From NCBI RefSeq assembly GCF_001552255.1, contig NZ_BCQV01000013.1:62001-126000 (forward strand): DNA of 64,000 bases, in the 5' to 3' direction. The notes below the pieces were generated by a model, which was not told where the DNA came from, did no database searches, and worked only from the letters and a program-made list of their open reading frames with translations. Position 1 is the first letter of the stretch. Every line of letters starts with the position of its first letter. This document shows positions 55,442 through 57,953 of this stretch, piece after piece. The stretch is from Alicyclobacillus shizuokensis NBRC 103103. Its GTDB lineage: Bacteria > Bacillota > Bacilli > Alicyclobacillales > Alicyclobacillaceae. A program made the translations under genes and the position numbers.

Positions 55442-55556
55442 CCACCATATGACTGGCGGAACGTGGAGCACCACGAGGGAGTATGGTGGATAGAATACAG
55501 CCGACCGCCTGGGCGAACACGTACGAGGTACGTGTGTACAGCTCAGACGGTCTTTT
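55442..55556 (+). ncRNA. ZTP (pfl-motif) riboswitch with attenuator, upstream of folD
   Basis: The conserved pfl features appear in order: P1 arms CCACCATA (55442-55449) and TATGGTGG (55482-55489), GACTGGCGG after the 5' arm, P2 stem CGTGG-AGCA-CCACG (55462-55475), GAGGGAG, then the invariant CCGCCTGGGC (55505-55514). GACCGCCTGGGC (55503-55514) can instead pair with GCTCAGACGGTC (55541-55552), with an inner ACACGTAC/GTACGTGT stem, and TTTT follows: a terminator that destroys the aptamer core. ZTP or ZMP, which build up when 10-formyl-THF is short, should favour read-through into folD. ZTP riboswitches are known in front of folD. Confidence 0.9.
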
Positions 55557-55574
55557 CGTTAGGAGGGGCAGCTG

Positions 55575-56477
55575 ATGACCATGCAACTGTGCGGCCGTGG
55601 CCTGGCTGAAGACATTCGCGCACGCGTTCGCGCGCAGGCGCTGGCGTGGCAGGCCCGCGGAGTCACGCCGCGAATGGTGACCGTGCTGGTGGAAGGTGAT
55701 GCGGCTTCGGATTTTTACGCCAACGCCAAGCGCCGCACTGCCCGCCAGCTCGGCATCGAACTGGAGGTGCGGCAACTGCCCGCTGACACCTCGCAGGCGC
55801 AGCTGTTGTCGGTGCTGGAACAGTTGAACAGAGACCCGCTCGTGCACGGCATCATGGTCGAGCTGCCGTTGCCGCCAAGCATTGATACGCAGACCGTTAC
55901 CGCCGCCATCCGCCCGGACAAGGACATCGACGGCCTGACGCCACACAACCGCATGGCCAACCTCTGCGGCATACCCGGCATTTATCCAGCCACGCCGGAG
56001 GCCTGCGTGCAACTGGCCGAGTATCACGGCTATCCCCTGGCCGGAAGACATGCCGTCCTGGTCGGGTGCGGGCAGACCGTCGGCCAGCCGCTGTTGCATC
56101 TGCTCCTGCGCAAAGGAGCCACCGTGACCGTCTGCCATATCGGTACCCCCGATCTGCGGGTGCACACGCGCCAGGCGGACATCCTGTTTGTCGCCGTCGG
56201 CAAGGCCGGCCTGATTCGTGAGGACATGGTGCACGAGCGGCTGTGGGTGATAGACGCCGGCATCAACGAATCCCCGGACGGTGGCGTGGTGGGAGATGTC
56301 CATCCGGCCGCCGCGGCCCGCGCGGCCGCCTGCTCCCCCGTCCCGGGCGGCGTCGGACCCGTGACCACCGCGCTCTTGTTCTCCAACTTGATGCAGGCTC
56401 TGCGTCTGCAGCAGCCGCGAAAGACGAAGCCGCAAAACAAGCCTGTAGGACGGGCTGGAGGAGGTGCCCAGTGGTGA
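55575..56477 (+). CDS. folD: FolD-type methylene-THF dehydrogenase/methenyl-THF cyclohydrolase, divergent
   Basis: A 300-residue FolD homologue for the one-carbon route between methylene-THF and 10-formyl-THF. The catalytic Tyr and Lys are kept in FYANAKRRTA, the Asp in DKDIDGLTPHN, and PGGVGPVTTALL is normal. But the motif usually QLPLP reads VELPLPP (Gln to Glu), PCTP reads PATP, and the NADP loop, usually GRS, reads VGCGQTVGQP, losing the Arg-Ser pair. The C-terminal 20 residues are basic and disordered. ATG 55575 follows AGGAGGGG and is under the ZTP riboswitch. Activity balance or cofactor use may differ from standard FolD. Confidence 0.9.
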   Translation: MTMQLCGRGLAEDIRARVRAQALAWQARGVTPRMVTVLVEGDAASDFYANAKRRTARQLGIELEVRQLPADTSQAQLLSVLEQLNRDPLVHGIMVELPLPPSIDTQTVTAAIRPDKDIDGLTPHNRMANLCGIPGIYPATPEACVQLAEYHGYPLAGRHAVLVGCGQTVGQPLLHLLLRKGATVTVCHIGTPDLRVHTRQADILFVAVGKAGLIREDMVHERLWVIDAGINESPDGGVVGDVHPAAAARAAACSPVPGGVGPVTTALLFSNLMQALRLQQPRKTKPQNKPVGRAGGGAQW

Positions 56478-56544: not shown

Positions 56545-57546
56545 TCAATAATATGTGCGCAGCACCGTCAGCCGACCGTCGCTGGCCAGCTCATAGTCGT
56601 CGATGCTCGCTGGCACCAACAGTGTGTCCCCGGCCTTGAGCGGCAGCTCTTCCTTCTGCCAGCGCAACACGCCCGATCCGTCCGCGCAGATGAGGATGTC
56701 CGGGTTGCCCGGGCGGCCGCTCTGCAGAGTCGCCGATGCCTGCTCCAACTCCACTTTGTCCAGCGTGAAATACGGACAGGTGACCAACCGCAGCATCGTC
56801 CAGCCATTCCCTTTGCCGAGGATGCGACGCTCGGTGGCGTCTTCCACATGCCGTTTCTGAGCCAGAAGCTCGTCCGCGTCATCCCGGAAGATCATGGCAT
56901 CGGCCGCCCTCTCGACATGCAGCTCCCGCGGCCGTCCGTCCTTACCCACGCGATCCCAATCGTACACGCGGTACGTGACGTCCGAAGTCTGCTGCACCTC
57001 AATCACCATCGTTCCCCCCAACAGCGCGTGCAGGGTGCGCGACGGGACGTAGACCACGTCTCCCGGCTGAATCGGCCGGTACTCCAAGAAATCCTTCACC
57101 CGGCCCTCCAGCACCGCTGCCCGATATTGCTCGCGGTTCTGAAAACGGTGCCCGTAATTGACCTGGCCCCGCTCGGGGCACTTGAGCACGTACCAAGCCT
57201 CTGTCTTGCCAAAATCACCCTCGTGTTCCTTCGCGTAGGCGTCGTCCGGATGGATTTGCACGGACAAATCTGTACTGGCTTCCAGGAACTTCACCAACAG
57301 TGGAAAGCGGGGCTGCGGTGAGTCGCCCAGGTACTCCTCTGGATACTGTGCCGTCAGGTCCACCAGCGACTTGCCGGCAAGCCAGCCGTTGCTGACCACG
57401 CTCGTGCCGTTGGGGTGACCGGACAGCACCCAATACTCTCCTATCGGCGCCTCGGTGGCAACACCAAACCAGGACTTGAGCACACCCCCGCCCCAAATCC
57501 GTTCCATGGCGATGGGAGCGAACTTGACTGGATAAAACATGGCCAT
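56545..57546 (-). CDS. manA: Mannose-6-phosphate isomerase, class I
   Basis: A 333-residue zinc isomerase of mannose-6-P and fructose-6-P, feeding nucleotide-mannose or mannose use. The cupin metal site appears in LSVQIHPDDAYAKEHEG (Gln, His, Glu) and VPSRTLHALLGG (His); IWGGGVLKSWFG and GEYWVLSGHPNG at the N-terminus are typical. ATG 57546 has AAGGGGAAGG upstream. It converges on folD with a 67-base gap and belongs to no visible operon. Confidence 0.95.
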   Translation of the reverse strand: MAMFYPVKFAPIAMERIWGGGVLKSWFGVATEAPIGEYWVLSGHPNGTSVVSNGWLAGKSLVDLTAQYPEEYLGDSPQPRFPLLVKFLEASTDLSVQIHPDDAYAKEHEGDFGKTEAWYVLKCPERGQVNYGHRFQNREQYRAAVLEGRVKDFLEYRPIQPGDVVYVPSRTLHALLGGTMVIEVQQTSDVTYRVYDWDRVGKDGRPRELHVERAADAMIFRDDADELLAQKRHVEDATERRILGKGNGWTMLRLVTCPYFTLDKVELEQASATLQSGRPGNPDILICADGSGVLRWQKEELPLKAGDTLLVPASIDDYELASDGRLTVLRTYY

Positions 57547-57953
57547 GCGCACCTTCCCCTTTCGGTATCATCCGTCCCATTGGGCGGCCAAAGGGCCTAA
57601 CCACGCCCCGCGAACATAAAAAACCGCCCCTGCTGTCCAGCATGGCGGCCCGCCCGCCCACAGCGGCCTCTGGCTGCGGGTTTATCTCTGACCGACATCT
57701 TAGCACAGGGGATGGCCTCCGGCAAATCATGCCCGTGGCAAAATCCGGGATGCTCCCGCGCGAAGCGGATCACCACGGAGCCGATCATAAGGGGTCCTAG
57801 ATCCACTACACGATTTAGCGCGCCCGATTCCATCGCCAGTTCAGCCTCAAGATGAGACCCAAAATCTATGATATGATAGCAGATATATCATAATATATCT
57901 TCGCAGATTTCGCAGATGGATTCATGCCTCTTTTAAGGCGGCAGAATCAGACC
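57547..57953. other. Gene-free stretch between manA and the GntR regulator
   Basis: I see no coding frame with similarity. The left two-thirds are GC-rich, with G/C tracts in the manA leader. The right third turns AT-rich and holds the inverted repeat at 57867-57892, suited to regulator binding and a promoter for the GntR gene. A manA promoter must also lie here but no clear hexamers stand out. Confidence 0.5.
57867..57892. promoter_or_regulatory. Inverted repeat upstream of the GntR gene
   Basis: TATGATAT (57867-57874) and ATATCATA (57885-57892) are perfect inverted 8-mers with a 10-base spacer in an AT-rich stretch. They lie about 110 bases before the regulator start and could be its operator. 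Confidence 0.45.

Follow-up and report, generated by a model that had tools for sequence, protein, structure and literature searches.

A ZTP riboswitch-associated FolD paralogue with altered active-site residues in the Alicyclobacillaceae

The folD2 locus and its ZTP riboswitch

The window analysed here is a stretch of 64,000 nucleotides from the acid-loving bacterium Alicyclobacillus shizuokensis NBRC 103103, a genome (G000) whose proteins are 96-97% identical to those of Alicyclobacillus kakegawensis. Its forward strand carries a gene of the FolD family, termed folD2 (55575-56477), which was delimited by Pfam search, alignment and structure modelling and encodes a protein of 300 amino acids from an ATG start codon. 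A Shine-Dalgarno sequence, AGGAGG (55562-55567, forward strand), is located 7 nt upstream of the start. The product is a full-length FolD in which the domains PF02882 (158.5 bits) and PF00763 (116.3 bits) both score well over their curated cut-offs and in which the YxxxK motif and Asp125 of the family are present. The AlphaFold2 model of the protein has a mean pLDDT of 91.6, and the top-ranked matches of this model in the Protein Data Bank were all FolD/MTHFD structures. The gene stands alone, the next one being manA-like and located on the opposite strand (56545-57552). A pseudogene was ruled out, as the reading frame is intact and the family conserved.

Upstream of folD2, on the same strand, lies a ZMP/ZTP riboswitch aptamer (RF01750, 55439-55521), which was detected by cmscan over the full model (1-86) with 67 bits against a gathering score of 39 (E 1.1e-8). 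Sequence inspection and RNA folding revealed a terminator-like hairpin, GACCG...CGGTC followed by TTTT (55503-55556, forward strand). The fold of the region 55480-55585 reached -43.5 kcal/mol (z -4.1), with 55503-55507 pairing with 55548-55552, and the 5' arm of this hairpin (55503-55552) shares bases with the 3' end of the aptamer. Because a terminator hairpin that overlaps the aptamer in this way and is followed by TTTT has the layout of a ligand-ON switch, the hairpin is probably the expression platform of such a switch.

The genome encodes a second FolD (FolD1) on another contig. This protein is canonical, with Gln100 and the motifs GRS and CHS, and no ZTP riboswitch was found at its gene. 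The original prediction had proposed that the altered copy might be a specialised stress version if another folD existed, and the reading as a specialised second copy is now well supported. No gene for formate-THF ligase (fhs) was found in the genome and PurH is present, so that 10-formyl-THF is expected to be made through FolD in this organism. A single tRNA gene is located near folD1 here as well as in genome G002, and two identical-scoring tRNA genes (1952-2035 and 2426-2509 of locus L078) lie near folD1 of the A. herbarius-like genome G001.

FolD2 orthologues were found in 34 Alicyclobacillaceae genomes and in one genome of a sister family (35 in total). FolD2 is thus family-wide, which rules out a horizontally acquired oddity of a single strain. 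The ZTP riboswitch goes with the altered copy in nearly all of this set: it precedes 34 of the 35 FolD2 genes, whereas it precedes only two of 56 Gln-type copies (L088 and L089), 11 of the 56 being covered solely by a genome-wide riboswitch search with stricter filters and three riboswitches near FolD1 (L074, L079, L091) being left out of the count as they lie on the opposite strand. The sole FolD2 gene without the element, L018 of genome G007, showed none within its 294 upstream bases. L088 (G021) and L089 (G017) encode Gln-type FolDs with a QHPVP motif, each with its own ZTP riboswitch, beside FolD2 and another Gln-type copy; the only FolD1 of A. shizuokensis is a similar QHPVP protein without riboswitch.

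The first open reading frames after the other ZTP riboswitches of the family are, as we take them to be from sequence familiarity, serA-serC, purT and glyA, and the second ZTP riboswitch of A. shizuokensis presumably precedes serA-serC, named on the same basis. Together with serine hydroxymethyltransferase and FolD, serine synthesis makes up a route that carries serine carbon to formyl-folate. The ZTP regulon was already known to include glyA and folD (PMC2864571). The element belongs to the same class, with the same folD and glyA targets, as the ZTP (pfl) riboswitch described upstream of folD, glyA, purH and fhs by Weinberg in 2010 (PMC2864571), but here it picks an altered paralogue and not the canonical FolD.

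Residue changes and phylogenetic position of FolD2

Both motifs on which the original prediction was built, VELPLP in place of QLPLP and GCG (within GCGQTVG) in place of GRS, were found in the folD2 product. Alignment with the human enzyme, whose landmark residues were confirmed in the same alignment, placed the changes at Gln100 (Glu), Arg173 (Cys), Ser174 (Gly) and Ser197 (Ile) in human numbering, with Tyr52, Lys56 and Asp125 unchanged; Glu96 and Lys52 of FolD2 correspond to human Gln100 and Lys56, respectively. These substitutions are conserved among the orthologues. Glu100 and Gly174 occur in all 35, and Arg173 is gone in 34, as is Ser197, which is replaced by Ala, Glu, Ile or Val (Glu197 in 14 of 35); the same number, 34, have no Arg or Lys at positions 173, 197 or 198. 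Tyr52, Lys56 and Asp125 are kept across all FolD2 proteins. Chance or sequencing error was ruled out as the source of the changes, since they are invariant across identities of 45-96%. Gln100, Arg173 and Ser174 are present in 56/56 Gln-type FolDs (FolD1 and related copies from the family and its relatives). The pairing of Gln100 with Lys56 that marks a bifunctional NADP-dependent FolD is therefore lacking in FolD2.

The 2'-phosphate of NADP is held by Arg173 together with His196 and Ser197 (PMC3368264). The earlier assumption that an Arg-Ser pair contacts this phosphate consequently holds for Arg173 and fails for the adjacent Ser174, the true partners being His196 and Ser197. As Ser197 is changed as well, the window protein having Cys and Ile in place of the Arg173 and Ser197 contacts, the suspicion of an altered NADP site survives the correction. 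In comparison with the bifunctional FolD of E. coli (1b0a), to which it is about 40% identical, FolD2 has the same fold and shares Tyr52, Lys56 and Asp125, but differs by a Glu at the position of Gln98 (human 100), by a Rossmann loop of the form GxGxTVG and by other NADP contacts.

A search of 398 Bacillota genomes with a FolD2 profile revealed a second high-scoring group, whose sequenced members carry VELPLP-like and GRGETVGKP-like motifs. These Glu-type relatives mostly keep Arg173 and Arg/Lys198, and none of 20 of their folD loci outside FolD2 had a ZTP riboswitch. In a tree calculated with the trait columns masked, FolD2 formed a single clade (SH-aLRT 99) nested within the Glu-type group and apart from the Gln-type FolDs; Glu100 was invariant among 80 sequences. 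Tree placement and the traits of the relatives together indicate that the exchange of Gln for Glu is old and shared, whereas FolD2 is set apart by its riboswitch and by the absence of the phosphate contacts. The original prediction had named the occurrence of the changes in many well-studied FolDs as evidence against itself, and this applies only by half. Glu100 is indeed common, as it marks a large Bacillota clade, in which no characterised member was found (no solved structure or kinetics of any Glu-type FolD came to light); the loss of Arg173 and Ser197 is special to FolD2.

Cyclohydrolase partners of Glu-type FolDs

Methenyl-THF cyclohydrolase also exists as a separate protein, FchA (PF04961), which 44 of the 45 Glu-type Bacillota genomes examined were found to encode; the folD of the single exception lies 40 bases from a contig end. 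The best 50 genomes of the FolD2 profile search comprise 48 that reach at least 325 bits, together with G210 and G178; most are Glu-type and four are Met/Leu-type. FchA occurs in 49 of them, and in 43 of these 49 genomes it is the gene next to folD, within about 220 bp, as counted by hand from the coordinates. In a sample of 147 single-FolD genomes, part of which was chosen by FchA status and in which PF04961 takes in histidine-pathway enzymes too, FchA accompanied the broken Lys56-Gln100 pair in 72 of 72 genomes; of the 75 genomes with an intact pair, 31 had FchA and 44 did not. The presence of FchA beside 31 intact FolDs means that FchA alone is no proof that a FolD lacks the hydrolysis step. 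The broken pair corresponds to two changes on the tree and to only one or two independent pairs, so that the figure of 72/72 does not amount to a formal test on the phylogeny. A test that set dyad loss against FchA over independent pairs was put aside, the origins being too few to inform. FchA changed about 13 times across the whole tree, yet it was never found missing in the broken-pair group. FchA is again present with other FolDs in which Lys56 is lost as well (Lys to Ala, Leu, Met or Ile; Gln to Met, Leu or Phe).

Among the Bacillota FolDs L304-L322, L236-L238 and L266-L270, Lys56 is replaced by Ala, Ile, Leu or Val and Gln100 by Phe, Met or Leu, and all of these genomes have FchA. Genome G120, at first an apparent case of a broken pair without FchA, was dismissed as an exception because its second FolD (L323) has an intact pair. 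Some Bacillota have two FolDs (L323 and L324 in G120; L299 and L325 in G117; L264 in G129). In one copy the Lys-Gln pair is retained but the Rossmann loop has degenerated (GDSFDLILP, GHSIEVGKP); in the other the Rossmann loop is good, the pair is broken and Glu takes the place of Asp125 (KDVEG/KDIEG). This is perhaps an independent split into a cyclohydrolase-only and a dehydrogenase-only enzyme.

Within the Alicyclobacillaceae, FchA was detected in three of 37 genomes. No PF04961 protein was found in A. shizuokensis, which has the canonical FolD1 instead. Two of the three FchA genomes, G007 and G012 (completeness 91% and 94%), are exactly those with FolD2 in which no FolD1 was found; all other FolD2 genomes encode an intact FolD. 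In G007, folD2 and fchA form an operon of overlapping genes (295-1822 of L018) that has no riboswitch in the 294 bases before it, and FolD2 retains the NADP contacts, with the motifs GRG and CHSRT; this is possibly the ancestral arrangement. The partnering of FolD2 with either FchA or an intact FolD supports a probable loss of cyclohydrolase activity, in agreement with the dehydrogenase bias originally suggested.

A comparable arrangement reportedly exists in Clostridium perfringens, for which Aluri et al. are said to have described a monofunctional FolD together with FchA in 2016. Both systems would have a FolD-family protein restricted to the dehydrogenase step and a second protein acting as cyclohydrolase. 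The partner of FolD2 is a bifunctional FolD1 rather than FchA, and ZTP control and the loss of NADP contacts are additional. Of the marks of the clostridial type, the window protein has membership in the Glu-type clade, but its genome has no FchA.

Proposed role of FolD2 and alternative explanations

Our observations make it reasonably probable that FolD2 is a ZTP-induced, dehydrogenase-only and probably NAD-preferring enzyme which pushes serine carbon toward formyl-folate, with FolD1 carrying out the hydrolysis. A shortage of 10-formyl-THF would lead to a build-up of AICAR/ZTP, upon which the riboswitch would block the terminator and turn folD2 on, and the same switch class on serA-serC, glyA and purT would direct serine carbon to formyl-folate. 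FolD2 would then oxidise 5,10-methylene-THF to 5,10-methenyl-THF with little or no hydrolysis to 10-formyl-THF, because a probable salt bridge between Glu96 and Lys52 would hold the lysine in a protonated form that could not serve the cyclohydrolase step. Hydrolysis of the methenyl-THF would fall to FolD1 of the same cell, or to FchA in two sister lineages, with spontaneous hydrolysis contributing. The loss of Arg173 and Ser197 would remove the pocket for the 2'-phosphate of NADP, making NAD+ the likely acceptor, and a high NAD+/NADH ratio could pull carbon in the oxidative direction.

The use of NAD, although likely, is the weakest step of this reading. The FolD of E. coli is NADP-dependent even though its position 173 is not an Arg, and the loss of Arg173 by itself is therefore no proof of NAD use. 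The proposed role of NAD as the drive for oxidation toward formyl-folate resembles that in the NAD-using human MTHFD2 and yeast Mtd1. In the bifunctional human MTHFD2, NAD is used together with Mg/Pi, which Arg201 and Arg233 hold in place (PMC9173628); FolD2 has no equivalent Arg. Regarding the cyclohydrolase step, the Q98H exchange in E. coli FolD, at the same position as Gln100, leaves about 8% of the dehydrogenase and about 1% of the cyclohydrolase activity (PMC5688156), and Lys54 of that enzyme is essential for the latter. Since Lys56 is kept in FolD2, some cyclohydrolase activity may remain.

It appears unlikely that FolD2 has the usual two activities and uses NADP, with Glu100 being tolerated and the extra copy only raising FolD dosage under formyl-folate shortage. 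The intact Lys56, Tyr52 and Asp125 of all FolD2 proteins, NADP use without Arg173 in E. coli and the occurrence of FchA beside intact FolDs would agree with it, but Glu100 does not vary in any of the 80 sequences, FchA or an intact FolD accompanies every Glu-type FolD bar the one at a contig end, and Q98H nearly abolishes the cyclohydrolase in E. coli. An enzyme that is dehydrogenase-only and yet NADP-dependent via other contacts is very unlikely: Arg or Lys is missing at 173, 197 and 198 in 34 of 35 FolD2 proteins and the Glu197 of 14 of them should repel the 2'-phosphate, which outweighs the retention of Arg173 and Arg/Lys198 in Glu-type relatives and the absence of Arg173 from some Gln-type FolDs.

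Even slighter is the chance that FolD2 serves as an inhibitor-resistant backup against carolacton and other natural products that target FolD, induced through ZTP by the resulting formyl-folate shortage. Q98H confers carolacton resistance on E. coli (PMC5688156), FolD2 also varies at residues that line this site (E. coli P265, near human P277), and FolD inhibition causes exactly the shortage that the riboswitch senses. However, there is no evidence of a producer or of exposure, and in many Bacillota a Glu-type enzyme is the sole FolD and has no riboswitch, which a division of labour between dehydrogenase and cyclohydrolase fits better.

ZTP control of folD and a monofunctional FolD with FchA are already known; in the open-access literature, no report of a riboswitch-bound Glu-type paralogue or of a Lys56-Gln100 rule was found. 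As a tentative generalisation, which we hold to be slightly less than an even prospect, the Alicyclobacillaceae may have divided FolD within one compartment between two enzymes, one bifunctional, NADP-dependent and free of ZTP control, the other a paralogue that is induced by ZTP, uses NAD and performs only the dehydrogenase step, in parallel to the cytosolic MTHFD1 and mitochondrial MTHFD2, and the Lys56-Gln100 pair may predict the cyclohydrolase step from sequence. Automatic annotation and family models name FolDs "bifunctional" throughout. If the rule holds, many Bacillota FolDs would be mis-annotated, and metabolic models would give them a step that they do not carry out. The literature disagrees on the residues that divide dehydrogenase from cyclohydrolase chemistry (PMC9173628), and the FolD variants offer a natural series for asking which ones do so. 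FolD2 itself would represent a case in which a stress riboswitch has recruited a redox-rewired paralogue.
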